A stretch of DNA of 64,000 nucleotides, from the NCBI GenBank assembly GCA_036268055.1, contig DATAUW010000005.1, forward strand, positions 1-64,000. Reading direction: 5' to 3'. Made by a program: the position numbers and the translations under genes. Shown piece after piece: positions 59,021 through 63,839 of this stretch. Numbering within the stretch: position 1 is the first letter of the stretch; each line of letters starts with the position of its first letter. Source of the stretch: Verrucomicrobiia bacterium. Its GTDB lineage: Bacteria; Verrucomicrobiota; Verrucomicrobiia; Limisphaerales; Pedosphaeraceae. The notes below the pieces were generated by a model, which did no database searches, was not told where the DNA came from, and saw only the letters and a list, made by a program, of their open reading frames with translations.

Positions 59021-59148
59021 AGCAATGTGCATTTGCCCGGTGACTCCCAATCCGTCAACCATCTCCCGCCCCGCAAAAAACAATCGCCGCCCCGCCACGA
59101 TTGCCAATCGCGTTCGCTCTTGTTTAACTCCCCGCGTTGAATTCATTG

Positions 59149-60147
59149 GTGACATGGATTGAAAGCCACGGCGCGTGGAGTCCCTATTGGATGGTCGGCG
59201 TGTTTCTTGGCGCGTCGTTCGTCACAATTTGGCGGCTCGAAAGCATGTCCAGCGGCGGCTTGGAAGGCACCGTGCTCGGCACGCTGGTGACGCCTTACAT
59301 CACCGGCATGGGCAACTTGATTTTCGCCTTCGTGCTCGCGCGCAAAGGCGGTGCCGCCACGGATGTCTTTACCAATTGCCTCGTCAACAACGTCACCAAC
59401 ATGACACTTGTTCTCGGTGTGCCCGCCGCGATTTGGAAACTCAATCTTCGGCCCGAAAAAAGTGCCACTGCCAAAAAAACCGCCAAGCTGAAAAAATCCC
59501 CGCCCATCCACACCATCAATCGCCTCTCGCTGTTGCTCACGCTCACCGCCGTGCTGTTTTTCACTGGCGCGACCTGGGCGCTCGGCAAGGATGGCCACAT
59601 CGGTTTCAACGACGGCCTGGTGCTGGTTGGCCTTTTTCTTTTTTGGCAATGCATCCACATCTTCGATGTTCTCAAAACCAACGCCAGCCAGAACCGCAGT
59701 TTCAGTTGGCTGCTTCCCCTTGACCTCGCCATCCTCGCCATCGGCGCTTACGCCATATATATAAGCACCGATTGGCTGGTGGACTGGATTTCCAAAATCC
59801 ACACCGGTTTCATCAGCGTGAAATATCTTGGCTGGCTGAGTGGCTGGTTGATGGTTTTGCCGAACGCGCTGCTCGCCATTTATTACGCCGCCACCAAACG
59901 CCCCGAAGTCGTTTACACTTCGCAAGTGGGCGACAACCACATTTGCATTCCGCTGTGCATCGGCGTGTTTGCGCTCTACCAGACCATCGCCGTGCCAGCG
60001 TTCTTCGAGCCGGGCGTCTGGATTTTGATGGGCGCAACGCTGGTTCATTTTTTCTTCATTGCGATTCTGGGCCGCCTCCCGCGCATCGCGGGCTGGCTCC
60101 TGATCGCTGCCTATGGCTATTTTCTCTATGCTGGTTTGTTGAAATGA
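59149..60147 (+). CDS. CaCA-type cation/calcium exchanger-like membrane protein
   Basis: 332 residues from GTG 59149; a TTG at 59137 is an alternative. About nine to ten membrane segments. The first alpha-repeat-like stretch is TGMGNLIFAF followed by CLVNNVTNMTLVLG, the second is VLPNALLAIYYAATK then VGDNHICIPLCIGV, with the order and spacing of the Na+/Ca2+ exchanger alpha repeats. In both repeats the acidic Glu of TSLPE is replaced by Asn (MGN, LPN), while the N and D of the second halves remain. A cation exchanger function is therefore likely but with altered ion binding. It converges with the next gene. Confidence 0.7.
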   Translation: MTWIESHGAWSPYWMVGVFLGASFVTIWRLESMSSGGLEGTVLGTLVTPYITGMGNLIFAFVLARKGGAATDVFTNCLVNNVTNMTLVLGVPAAIWKLNLRPEKSATAKKTAKLKKSPPIHTINRLSLLLTLTAVLFFTGATWALGKDGHIGFNDGLVLVGLFLFWQCIHIFDVLKTNASQNRSFSWLLPLDLAILAIGAYAIYISTDWLVDWISKIHTGFISVKYLGWLSGWLMVLPNALLAIYYAATKRPEVVYTSQVGDNHICIPLCIGVFALYQTIAVPAFFEPGVWILMGATLVHFFFIAILGRLPRIAGWLLIAAYGYFLYAGLLK

Positions 60148-60150
60148 ATT

Positions 60151-60576
60151 TCACAACGTGTACACTAGCGGGTTCGCGCGGATCTTATCGCTTAATTCCA
60201 CGAACGGCACCTGCGCCTCAATCCAATTCGGATTCTTCGCAATATCTTCCATGGATTTCATCGTGTGATTGCAGATCAAATAATACCCGTCGCCCAAAAC
60301 CAGGAAAGCCTCAAACAACGTCCCCACGCCGTTCCGGGTAAATTCAAAATCACCCACCCCATGCGCCGCTTTCACCAATTCGGCCCGCAACGCCCCCAGG
60401 TCTTTCGCAAAATTTTTCAGGAAATCGTCATTCCTTGGTCCGATATAATTCAGGATGCGGCTGCGTTTTTGCGCCAGCGATACCACCGCCCACTCGTCAA
60501 ACACGACTTGTTTGTAGCGCGAATTCATCTGGTCGGCAGAGTGTTTGATGGCTTTCGTGAGTTCTTCAAGCGTCAT
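60151..60576 (-). CDS. Conserved-looking protein of unknown function
   Basis: 141 residues from ATG 60576 (the frame to 60609 adds an unlikely start). The sequence is helix-strand mixed: MTLEELTKAIKHSADQMN, FDEWAVVSLAQKRSRILNYIGPRNDDFLKNF, GVGTLFEAFLVLGDGYYLICNH. The last part resembles small ligand-binding domains, but I could not assign a family. No signal or membrane segment. It converges with the exchanger gene, leaving 3 bases between the stops. No partner gene is evident; I do not recognise it. Confidence 0.65.
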   Translation of the reverse strand: MTLEELTKAIKHSADQMNSRYKQVVFDEWAVVSLAQKRSRILNYIGPRNDDFLKNFAKDLGALRAELVKAAHGVGDFEFTRNGVGTLFEAFLVLGDGYYLICNHTMKSMEDIAKNPNWIEAQVPFVELSDKIRANPLVYTL

Positions 60577-60780
60577 AGAATGATTCCGTTGTGTCCAAAT
60601 TGCAGGCACGATTCGCCCCGAAGCAAGACAGTCCCCACCGTCAAACGACCAGGCGATCCGTCGCGCATTTTGGGTTCTTTATTATCTTTTTCGACTGTCG
60701 CAATCTCGTCCACTGGAGATAGTGCTTTCAGCTTCACGGATTAAAGCTACTGTTATACCAACCCTGAAATCGTCATTTTG

Positions 60781-61500
60781 ATGCTCGAATATTTTGCCGG
60801 CCACGAACACGCCGCCCCGATTTTTCTCGTCGCAATTTTTTTTGCCGCCACGGTGCTGGCGATGGGATGCGTCCTGCCAGCGCAAAACATTTTTGCCGCA
60901 ACTGGCATTCTCGCCGTCTTCACCGCACTCACCCAAACCGTCGGCGAAAAATTGCACGTTCCCTTCGGCCCCTTCTTCTATACGGAAAATCTCGGACGAC
61001 CGCTGCTTTATCTCGTGCCGTGGCCGATTATCATTCTTTGGCCCGCGGTCATTCTGAATTCACGCGGCGCCGTTGCGCTGATTCTTCGGCACCGCCGCGA
61101 CGCGCCCAGCTACGGCATCTTTTCCATGCTTTTGACTTGCCTGCTCACGGTTCTATTCGATGCCGCGCTCGAACCTTACGCCGCCCGCACCCACCATTTT
61201 TGGATCTGGGAAACCCAGAAACCCTTTCTCTCCTGGTACAGCGCGCCGTGGTTCAATTTCGCCTCGCGTTTTTTGATAACGCTGATTCTCCTCGCCTGCG
61301 CGATGCCGTGGTTGATCAACAAGAAGCCTGTCACCAATCCACCGCCCGATTATTTTCCTCTTGCGCTTTGGTCCGGCGCGATGATTTTTCTTATCGTCGC
61401 CAACACCACAAATCACTTGTGGCCAGCGGTCATCTTAGGAGCAATCATCACCGGAGCCGTCACGATTCTCGCGCTGAAAAATTCCCGCAGCCCGGGTTAA
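60781..61500 (+). CDS. Membrane protein of the carotenoid biosynthesis (CruF/DUF422) family
   Basis: 239 residues from ATG 60781. Six or more hydrophobic segments (PIFLVAIFFAATVLAMG, WPIIILWPAVIL, FASRFLITLILLACAMPW and so on). The conserved stretches PFGPFFYTENLGRPLLYLVP and LLTVLFDAALEPYAARTHHFWIWE match the family of carotenoid 1,2-hydratase/CruF-like proteins. In cyanobacteria and others CruF hydrates the psi end of gamma-carotene. No phytoene synthase, desaturase or cyclase gene is in the window, so the carotenoid role is only suggested by the family. It overlaps the following minus-strand stop by 4 bases. Confidence 0.75.
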   Translation: MLEYFAGHEHAAPIFLVAIFFAATVLAMGCVLPAQNIFAATGILAVFTALTQTVGEKLHVPFGPFFYTENLGRPLLYLVPWPIIILWPAVILNSRGAVALILRHRRDAPSYGIFSMLLTCLLTVLFDAALEPYAARTHHFWIWETQKPFLSWYSAPWFNFASRFLITLILLACAMPWLINKKPVTNPPPDYFPLALWSGAMIFLIVANTTNHLWPAVILGAIITGAVTILALKNSRSPG

Positions 61501-62840
61501 GCGTTGCCGCTCTTGCCTTCCGTCTCCTCCGTGACTTTGCGCGTCAGCCGCAGTTTCGCCACGCGCATGCTGTCCATTTCTTCCACGCGCAATTCGAACG
61601 CTCCCAAAGTCAGCGTATCTCCCACTTTGGGAAACCCTCCCTGCCGATGCGTCACCCACCCGCTCACCGTCGTGATCCCCTCTTCTTCCAGTGGCTGCGC
61701 CACCAACTCCGACAATTCATGCAATGGCAACCCGCCCGCCATCTCCCAGCTTGTCAATCCCATGCGCACCAGCAACGGTTTTTCCTGATCGAATTCGTCC
61801 TGTATCTGCCCAACCAATTCTTCCAAAATATTCTCCAGCGTCACCATCCCTACGGTTCCACCATATTCATCTACCACAATGGCGAAATGGAGTTGGCGTT
61901 CCAAAAATAATTGCAGCAATCTTTCGAGCCGCGCGGTTTCGGGAACGTAAATCAATTTCCGTGCAATGCCCGCCAAATCAGCCCCGCTGTGCGCCTTGTA
62001 ACGCGCCGCGAACAAATCCTTGAAATGCACCACGCCCAAAGTCTTGTCAAGGTTGCCTCGCTCACACAAGGGCAGCCGGGAATAACGTGATTTTTCCGCC
62101 ACCTCAAGGCACTCAGTGATGCTCGCGTCTGTATCCAGCATCACGATCTCCTGCCGTGGCCGCATGACTTCACGCACCTTGCGGCGGCGCAAGTCGAGCG
62201 CGTTCAGAACGATGTCACGTCCCAAACGCGTCGCGCCCGAGTGACGCTGCGACGCCGTGATCAAGAGCCGCAACTCTTCCACCGAATGTGCGTGCTCCGC
62301 TTCCGTGACCGATTCGATTCCTGCCTGCTTCAATAGCCACATCGCCGATTTGTTCAACAACCACACGAACGGAAACGTGATCCGCGCAAACCATGCCAAC
62401 GGTTGCGCCGTCCACAGCGCAACGGGAACCGTCTTACGAATCGCGATGGCTTTGGGTCCAAGTTCGCCAACCACGATCAGCAAAAATGAATTAATAAAAA
62501 ATCCCGTAAGGATCGCGACGGTGTGGCGCACCGCTGCTGATTCCACGTGAAATCCGTCAAATACCGGCGCCAATAACGCCTCAAATACCGGTTCCACCAG
62601 CATGCCCAATCCCAGGCTCGCCAGAGTGATTCCAAACTGGGTCGCACTGATCGTCGCTTCGAGATTACGCAACAGGAGCCTCACGGTCTTCGCGCGGCGG
62701 TTGCCGCCGATGACCATAGTCTCGATTTGCGTATCGCGGATTTTTACCAGAGCCAATTCTGCCGCGACAAAAAAACCGTTCAACAGCACCAGCGCGAACA
62801 CGCCAAGCAACCGCATCAAATTGGACATCATCGTTTCCAT
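61497..62840 (-). CDS. CNNM/CorC-type (HlyC/CorC) membrane protein with CBS domains
   Basis: 447 residues. A CNNM transmembrane domain (about 1-200) has four hydrophobic segments (LLGVFALVLLNGFFVAAELALVKIR, FINSFLLIVVGELGPKAI). Two CBS domains follow (about 225-340: REVMRPRQEIVMLDTDASITE; VVDEYGGTVGMVTLENILEELVG) and a CorC/HlyC C-terminal domain (MAGGLPLHELSELV and FELRVEEMDSMRVAKLRL). The family is linked to magnesium and cobalt homeostasis; in some bacteria members act as Mg/Na transporters. It is the first listed of three similar genes on this strand. Confidence 0.94.
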   Translation of the reverse strand: METMMSNLMRLLGVFALVLLNGFFVAAELALVKIRDTQIETMVIGGNRRAKTVRLLLRNLEATISATQFGITLASLGLGMLVEPVFEALLAPVFDGFHVESAAVRHTVAILTGFFINSFLLIVVGELGPKAIAIRKTVPVALWTAQPLAWFARITFPFVWLLNKSAMWLLKQAGIESVTEAEHAHSVEELRLLITASQRHSGATRLGRDIVLNALDLRRRKVREVMRPRQEIVMLDTDASITECLEVAEKSRYSRLPLCERGNLDKTLGVVHFKDLFAARYKAHSGADLAGIARKLIYVPETARLERLLQLFLERQLHFAIVVDEYGGTVGMVTLENILEELVGQIQDEFDQEKPLLVRMGLTSWEMAGGLPLHELSELVAQPLEEEGITTVSGWVTHRQGGFPKVGDTLTLGAFELRVEEMDSMRVAKLRLTRKVTEETEGKSGNA

Positions 62841-62849
62841 GCGTTCACT

Positions 62850-63839
62850 CTACAATCGCACCTCGCCGAAAATGACTTTGAGAATATCCTGCAAACTCAC
62901 GATGCCCGTCTCGCGTTTGTCGCGTCCCAGCACGATCGCCAGTCGCTGCCCGCTGCGTTGCATTCGTTTCAACGCTGCTTCGAGCCGCATGTCTTCTTCC
63001 AGATAAAGTGCAGGCTTCACATAATCCGCTGCCGATTTTTCCAAATCCAATTCCGCCTGGTACATCACGGCGCGCAAACTTAAGACGCCCACGATTCGCC
63101 GCTGATTTCCTTCCACGCGCCACACTGGCAAGCGCGACACCCGCCGTTCGCGCGCGATTTTCAGAACGTCGCCGATGTGCGTTTGCGTCGTGATCGTTTC
63201 CGCGCGTTCCATCGGAATGGCGACTTCGCGCACTTGAAGATTTTGCAAATCCAGCACGCGATTGATCATTAGGCGTTCGTCCGAGGTCAGCCCCTGCGCG
63301 GATTCCTGCATGACCAGTCGCATTTCCTCGCGGCTGCCGAAAAGTTGCCCCTGAAAAGTTTTGCCATCCGTCCAGCGCGCCAGGCCTTGCGCCAGTTTGG
63401 TCATCAATGCCACCAGCGGCGCGAGCACAAGATGGATGAATCGAAACGGTCCCGCGAGCGCCAGCGTCAACCGATTCGGAAACATGCGAAAGAGCATCTT
63501 CGGCAGCAATTCGCAGAAGGCATAAAACAAAAATACCAGCGCCAAAAAACAAACAAGCCATAATCCCGGCCATTGCCCGAGCCACGCGCGCAACCAGAAC
63601 ACCAGCAAACTCACCGCTCCCAGATTCGCGAGAGTATTGCCGACCAGGATCGTCCACAGAAAATTTTCCGGGCTGTTGAGATACGCCATGAGCACGGTCG
63701 CGCGCGGATCGCCGGTGCGCATCATTTGGCGGATGCGCAGCCGGTTCAAGGCCAGCACGCCCGCTTCCATGCCGGAAAATAAAAACGACAACACCACGCA
63801 AACGAACACTGGCAATACGATGTATAAAATATGTTCCAT
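62850..63839 (-). CDS. CNNM-domain protein with CBS pair, without CorC C-terminal domain
   Basis: 329 residues. The CNNM part (ILYIVLPVFVCVVLSFLFSGMEAGVLALNRLRIRQMMRTG, FCELLPKMLFRMFPNRL) has three to four membrane segments. A CBS pair follows (REVAIPMERAETITTQTHIGDVLKIA; RSGQRLAIVLGRDKRETGIVSLQDILKVIFG). It ends at about the second CBS, so it lacks the C-terminal transporter-associated domain of its neighbours. It may be a shorter paralogue or a partner of them. There is a 9-base gap to the next gene and 4 bases to the previous one, so the three form one transcript. Confidence 0.92.
   Translation of the reverse strand: MEHILYIVLPVFVCVVLSFLFSGMEAGVLALNRLRIRQMMRTGDPRATVLMAYLNSPENFLWTILVGNTLANLGAVSLLVFWLRAWLGQWPGLWLVCFLALVFLFYAFCELLPKMLFRMFPNRLTLALAGPFRFIHLVLAPLVALMTKLAQGLARWTDGKTFQGQLFGSREEMRLVMQESAQGLTSDERLMINRVLDLQNLQVREVAIPMERAETITTQTHIGDVLKIARERRVSRLPVWRVEGNQRRIVGVLSLRAVMYQAELDLEKSAADYVKPALYLEEDMRLEAALKRMQRSGQRLAIVLGRDKRETGIVSLQDILKVIFGEVRL

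Follow-up and report, generated by a model that had tools for sequence, protein, structure and literature searches.

A conserved verrucomicrobial protein family with a predicted CaCA fold, asparagine at both signature glutamate positions and a probable partner protein

We found that a gene in a verrucomicrobial contig codes for a member of a distinct and conserved clade with the predicted fold of the CaCA superfamily, in which the positions of the two glutamates described as catalytic in NCX_Mj, the model protein of this superfamily (PMC8366772 and PMC4753433, in excerpt), are both occupied by asparagine (hereafter the N/N family). The ion pocket appears to have been rebuilt, and we put at about one half the probability that these proteins are alternating-access carriers for a substrate other than Ca2+ with a soluble helper, the product of a convergent neighbouring gene. 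The co-occurrence of this partner gene with the exchanger is newly seen here and was absent from an earlier note on the same DNA. Searches of the open-licence PMC literature listed no prior description of the N/N clade or of the partner. A natural clade with invariant Asn at both catalytic positions offers a ready test of the fold without its calcium site and is informative on how CaCA proteins change substrate, and the phylogenetic pattern that ties an unnamed partner to the carrier makes both functions testable together.

Predicted fold and ion pocket of the exchanger

The DNA comes from a Verrucomicrobiia bacterium (GCA_036268055.1, contig DATAUW010000005.1, positions 1 to 64,000, forward strand); this whole stretch of 64,000 nucleotides is referred to as the window. 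The features of the exchanger gene are as follows.

59137..60147 (stop included), + strand: CaCA-fold membrane protein, 336 aa from TTG 59137
59293..59316, + strand: alpha-1 signature in TM2, residues 53-60, PYITGMGN (PYCSGxGN in the family), its last residue, N60, being that of NCX_Mj E54
59374..59400, + strand: amide face of TM3, residues 80-88, NCLVNNVTN, with N80, N84 (S77 position) and N88 (N81 position)
59842..59865, + strand: alpha-2 signature in TM7, residues 236-243, GWLMVLPN, its last residue, N243, being that of E213
59923..59946, + strand: TM8 motif, residues 263-270, QVGDNHIC, with D266 (S236 position), H268 and C270 (D240 position)

An in-frame GTG at 59149, taken as the start in the earlier note, is the other possible start of this gene. 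The earlier note had aligned the protein by eye with CaCA exchangers, and the profile search does place it inside this superfamily: it matches the Pfam family Na_Ca_ex with 65.5 bits (cut-off 24.9) over two stretches that correspond to both alpha repeats. A profile search of the entire source genome (5.1 Mb, 96.21% complete) gave Na_Ca_ex matches of 42.0 and 35.1 bits, which are the two halves of this same gene, and no second Na_Ca_ex protein. NCBIfam has no family for it. Searched as a single sequence against the PDB with phmmer, the exchanger had no relative at E 10, while the family profile did find PDB relatives.

The AlphaFold2 model, built from an alignment of 35 sequences (35 of 44, nine near-duplicates being omitted), has ten long helices (pLDDT 83.0, pTM 0.84). 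Its top Foldseek matches are NCX_Mj structures (E 3.7e-6), and the best 23 entries listed by VIA-align are all CaCA proteins (NCLX, NCX1, YfkE, CAX, VCX1, CAX1 and NCX_Mj) with Z from 22.6 to 26.7, the next entry having a Z of 7.8. Structure prediction, proposed in the earlier note as a check, thus returned a CaCA fold with both NCX_Mj and CAX entries among its matches. Since the Na_Ca_ex profile, the ten helices and the structural matches agree, the protein as modelled is a member of the CaCA superfamily at the level of the fold.

We carried the numbering of NCX_Mj over to the window protein in three ways: by a profile search against the PDB chains of NCX_Mj (second repeat), by a profile-profile alignment with 20 other CaCA proteins (both repeats) and by a combined alignment. 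The 20 proteins are those of a set of 21 from which one, L152, was omitted at this step, although it is counted in the combined alignment. E213 corresponds to N243 in all three alignments, and E54 to N60 in the two that cover the first repeat, so that the replacement of both signature glutamates described in the earlier note holds. The comparison of predicted folds, which gives ranges and no residue pairs, agrees with the alignments at the level of domains.

The change in the pocket, as judged from aligned positions, is wider than the earlier note had it. At the twelve ion-coordinating positions of NCX_Mj (A47, T50, S51, E54, S77, N81, A206, T209, S210, E213, S236 and D240) the window protein has, in the combined alignment, P, T, G, N, N, N, G, M, V, N, D and C; ten of the twelve are changed, and only those of T50 and N81 are identical. 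Even at the T50 position, the family has Ser in 114 of 118 sequences and the window protein Thr. The earlier note had considered the partner Asn and Asp of the two glutamates still recognisable, which is right for the Asn (N81, here N88) but not for the Asp, as the D240 position is Cys or Ser. The conserved acid of the pocket is D266, one helix turn before the D240 position (residue 270). It had also been considered that the acids might lie elsewhere in the same helices; in the window protein this is not the case in TM2 and TM7, but it is in TM8, whose acid occupies the position of S236 and not that of D240.

The pocket carboxylates of NCX_Mj are E54, E213 and D240 (PMC8366772, in excerpt). 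Counted by position, these three would be reduced to one, D266, in the window protein. This count is not valid for every member of the family, since three relatives (L059, L082 and L094) have Asp at position 239 in TM7, where Met is usual (the T209 position); by position, this additional acid would be on the pocket side. At position 55 (59299-59301) the window protein is the sole row with Ile; Cys is found there in 111 of the 118 distinct sequences, and 7 of 127 rows are without it.

Conservation and distribution of the N/N family

The 127 family rows were composed of 44 from whole-genome searches and 80 from a genome collection, minus three duplicates, plus six more divergent sequences; removing nine repeats left 118 distinct sequences, window included. 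The collection rows are the closest 80 of 292 relatives, and they had been retrieved with two patterns, either one being enough, of which one contained N84/N85/N88 and the other H268/C270. These columns are therefore not independent in the collection loci, while N60, N243 and D266 are in neither pattern. In the pattern-free subset from whole-genome searches, N60, N243, D266 and H268 are present in 50 of 50 sequences.

N60, N243, D266, H268, N80, N84, N85, Q263 and R33 are invariant in all 118 distinct sequences, and N88 is found in 117. The D240 position is Cys in 88 and Ser in 30, never an acid, and position 274 is Cys in 116. The most divergent member (L129, 36% identity) retains both Asn, D266 and H268. 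Counted in homologues, as the earlier note had suggested, the two signature positions are thus both Asn in each of the 118 family sequences. A comparison set of 30 CaCA rows from outside the family, most of them of this phylum, has Glu throughout at the first position and in 28 cases at the second. The two deviating rows have Lys (L152) and Asp (L165) at the second position, the latter row being apparently a frame-shifted fragment with two overlapping frames. The proposal that the double loss was selected rather than random is borne out by the pocket residues, invariant across at least two classes and a few Betaproteobacteria. As to the two outcomes that it had offered, changed ion choice or lost transport, the strict conservation would favour a changed substrate over decay.

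Three of the other CaCA rows (L136, L137 and L138) belong to a different subfamily, which has Glu at both signature positions but Thr at, or close to, those of N81 and D240; of the non-family CaCA rows, L136 scores highest with the family profile. In one genome (G028, contig C59) the exchanger gene is split into two pieces (L016 and L018), with 58 bases between them that contain nine consecutive G on the coding strand. Both pieces have the Asn and were kept outside the counts; an assembly error, a frameshift or phase variation would each account for the split. Another genome (G217, contig C256, L135:1-202) carries a degraded remnant of the exchanger, with an upstream stop and an altered NNVTN motif, and has no match to the partner.

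A maximum-likelihood tree separates the 22 family rows from all others by a branch with 100/100 support. Their stem measures 4.65 changes per column, against 3.68 for that of five CAX-like rows. NCX_Mj groups with 30 other CaCA rows and not with the N/N family. Since the tree has no root, includes no eukaryotic sequences and contains some long branches, it speaks for separateness and not for the order of origin.

The family has a patchy distribution. Of 58 near relatives of the source genome 17 have it, as do 36 of 387 genomes from across the phylum, in at least two classes. The phylum search matched 49 genomes, of which the 36 at E 4e-61 or better were counted as family and 13 weaker ones left out; the latter are the G217 remnant and 12 others, and the three of these 12 that were checked are all Glu/Glu. 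The nearest relatives among the closest 80 of 292 loci are from Verrucomicrobia, and five of these 80 are betaproteobacterial (MAGs of Rhodoferax, Sideroxydans or Gallionellaceae). The order to which one of the betaproteobacterial genomes belongs (G488) has two strong exchanger matches in 200 genomes, G488 included. These copies are most simply explained by transfer, the alternative being mis-binning. Plasmid records encoded no relative at E 1e-3.

The convergent partner gene

The gene that follows the exchanger in the window is its convergent neighbour.

60151..60609, - strand: probable partner gene, 152 aa, its stop 3 bases past that of the exchanger

The same gene lies downstream of the exchanger and convergent with it in 53 of the closest 80 loci (of 292), some of which are truncated where the contig stops. 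A further 20 loci (7-13 kb) had the partner in 14 cases and the other eight neighbours seen in the window in none. Both genes are present in 34 of the 387 phylum genomes, the exchanger only in two (G105, with the most divergent copy, and G392), the partner only in none and neither gene in 351 (Fisher 8.6e-47, uncorrected for shared descent). The 58 near relatives divide into 16 with both, one with the exchanger only (G055), two with the partner only (G018 and G025) and 39 with neither, and the corresponding numbers at family level (n = 51) are 12, 1, 2 and 36. As a control, the presence of other CaCA proteins was compared with that of the exchanger in 53 near-relative genomes, and no association appeared (5 genomes with both, and 10, 12 and 26 in the remaining cells; p 0.57); the list of genomes with other CaCA proteins was compiled by hand and includes one, G040, without a sequence check.

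Co-occurrence is not a matter of linkage alone, since 10 of the 34 pairs are not neighbours but lie more than 500 bp apart: five are on different contigs, two are separated by 0.2 and 2.1 Mb and three by 1.3-2.6 kb. On the other hand, six betaproteobacterial genomes carry the exchanger, and the partner search matched none of five of them and the sixth (G490) only weakly (E 6e-4). As these genomes and G055, G105 and G392 lack a clear partner, the carrier can do without it. Dependence is thus mainly one-way, the partner being rarely seen without the exchanger.

The partner has no Pfam or NCBIfam family; in particular, a Roadblock match in Pfam was absent for the window protein and for 26 members. 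Comparison with PDB sequences gave only chance-level matches, and PADLOC had no match for the exchanger or for the partner. The partner alignment comprises 26 of 30 loci, four having been omitted for stops within the aligned stretch, which are stops at the gene's own ends. The predicted model (pLDDT 85.9) is an alpha-beta fold. Its best Foldseek match is a GAF domain, with a weak E value of 5.9e-3, and a second structural comparison gave a Lokiarchaeal Roadblock domain (Z 8.9, 99 aligned residues, 12% identity) and MglB (Z 7.9). The best structural matches are regulatory domains (Roadblock, MglB, Rag GTPase C-terminal and GAF sensor domains); both Roadblock/LC7 and MglB are included, and GAF and LuxR-type ligand domains score about alike. 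The model may therefore have a Roadblock/GAF-type fold, although the match is weak and could reflect a common arrangement.

Possible functions and other neighbouring genes

The family shares with exchangers of the NCX_Mj/YrbG type the ten-helix fold (Z 22.7-24.7 for the NCX_Mj entries), the Na_Ca_ex profile and the Asn at the N81 position, but differs in both signature glutamates, in Cys/Ser at the D240 position, in Asp at the S236 position and in ten of the twelve ligands overall. In NCX_Mj, kcat/Km falls 25-50-fold in the mutants E54A and E213A, whereas S236A and N81A are little affected, if at all (PMC4753433, in excerpt). Since loss of either glutamate is so damaging and loss of S236 or N81 matters little, an NCX-type calcium site is unlikely in the N/N family. 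The name "sodium/calcium exchanger", wherever it is given from the Pfam match alone, is probably wrong for these proteins.

The H+/Ca2+ exchangers CAX, YfkE and VCX1 have the same fold (Z 23-26), but their signature GNxxE(H) retains the Glu (PMC8366772, in excerpt) that is missing here. The closest precedent for an amide is the plant Mg2+/H+ exchanger MHX, of the NCX branch, which has Gln at the first signature position (PMC3679957 and PMC4735048, in excerpt), a residue that may explain its absent Ca2+ binding, as suggested in the available part of PMC4735048. However, MHX is described as confined to plants and has Asp in the second repeat, except in SmMHX (PMC3679957, in excerpt), where the N/N family has Asn in both.

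In the carrier reading that we favour, the two inverted repeats would keep an alternating access like that of NCX, and one pocket carboxylate in place of three would mean that the Na+/Ca2+ site has been abandoned and another substrate is moved. D266, putatively the one titratable acid within an amide-rich cage, could, perhaps with H268, couple transport to protons or to a single monovalent cation. The most likely candidates would be an exchange of the Mg2+/H+ type, by analogy with MHX, or of a monovalent cation for H+. The 152-aa partner would be a soluble regulator of the carrier or its link to a sensor. A more ambitious version, which we put forward tentatively and consider rather less probable, is that this is a CaCA branch without calcium, whose amide-rich pocket with a single Asp handles a substrate that is not known for the fold and which forms, with a dedicated soluble Roadblock/GAF-like partner, a two-part module of Verrucomicrobiota for transport or ion sensing.

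The main rival is that the protein does not transport at all and is a sensor ("transceptor"), an exchanger fold without turnover that reports the state of an ion or of the membrane to the Roadblock/GAF-like partner. The absence of both catalytic glutamates, the near restriction of the partner to genomes with the exchanger within the phylum and the regulatory nature of its best structural matches (MglB, Rag GTPase C-terminal domains and GAF sensors) are all compatible with such a role. We nevertheless find it unlikely, as the full set of invariant polar residues of the pocket is retained, the betaproteobacterial copies are without a clear partner and the match of the partner fold is weak.

Retained exchange of Ca2+ or Na+/Ca2+, with D266 and the Asn side chains replacing the glutamates, seems to us a little less plausible still. 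Apart from the CaCA fold itself, the case for it comes from NCLX, which exchanges Na+ for Ca2+ despite nine of its twelve ligands being unlike those of NCX_Mj (PMC8366772, in excerpt). The NCLX/CCX group resembles the N/N family in fold (Z up to 26.7) and in its strongly altered ligand set, and the native alpha-2 signature of NCLX is printed as GNSIGP, so that an acid at the second signature may be dispensable in some CaCA proteins (PMC8366772, in excerpt). However, the first repeat of NCLX/CCX reads GNGAPD, with Asp where the signature PYCSGxGN of the N/N family has Asn, and the NCLX_Mj chimera has an acid at both positions, D54 and D213, where the N/N family has neither (PMC8366772, in excerpt). 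The strong impairment of E54A and E213A and the small contribution of S236 in NCX_Mj (PMC4753433, in excerpt) also argue against a calcium site built around D266.

A role as transition-metal exporter, with D266, H268, C270, C274 and C55 as ligands, is improbable. D266, C270 and C274 are spaced by four in one helix, with H268 invariant and C274 in 116 of 118 sequences, and in two loci a metal permease gene is found beside the exchanger.

L129:2512-3684 and L133:2427-3554, same strand as the exchanger and directly upstream of it: SO_0444-type Cu/Zn efflux permease (NCBIfam CuZnOut_SO0444, above cut-off)

These two loci are from two genomes of one genus and are the only ones with this permease among 12 with neighbours listed; moreover, 30 of 118 sequences have Ser at position 270, and the window protein has Ile at position 55. 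Finally, a misalignment, with the acids elsewhere, or a gene in decay, to which the G217 remnant, the split gene of G028 and the Asp elsewhere in TM7 of three relatives might point, is hardly credible given three concordant alignments and strict conservation in 118 distinct sequences.

Other genes recur close to the exchanger, beginning in the window with a pair further downstream.

61497-63839, - strand: two CNNM-type genes (CNNM and CBS domains), with homologues downstream of the exchanger in other loci

The two CNNM-type genes are beside the exchanger in 21 and 20 of the closest 80 loci (of 292), and a CruF-like gene in 25 of them. As none of the three was found in the 20 further loci, they were not used as functional evidence. 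Promoter and terminator patterns were about at the level of shuffled sequence. No ion-specific riboswitch was found above Rfam thresholds in 27 loci and the window, although three SAM riboswitches were. In the 20 further loci glycolytic genes, named by eye as PGK-like and GAPDH-like, recur in four to six.
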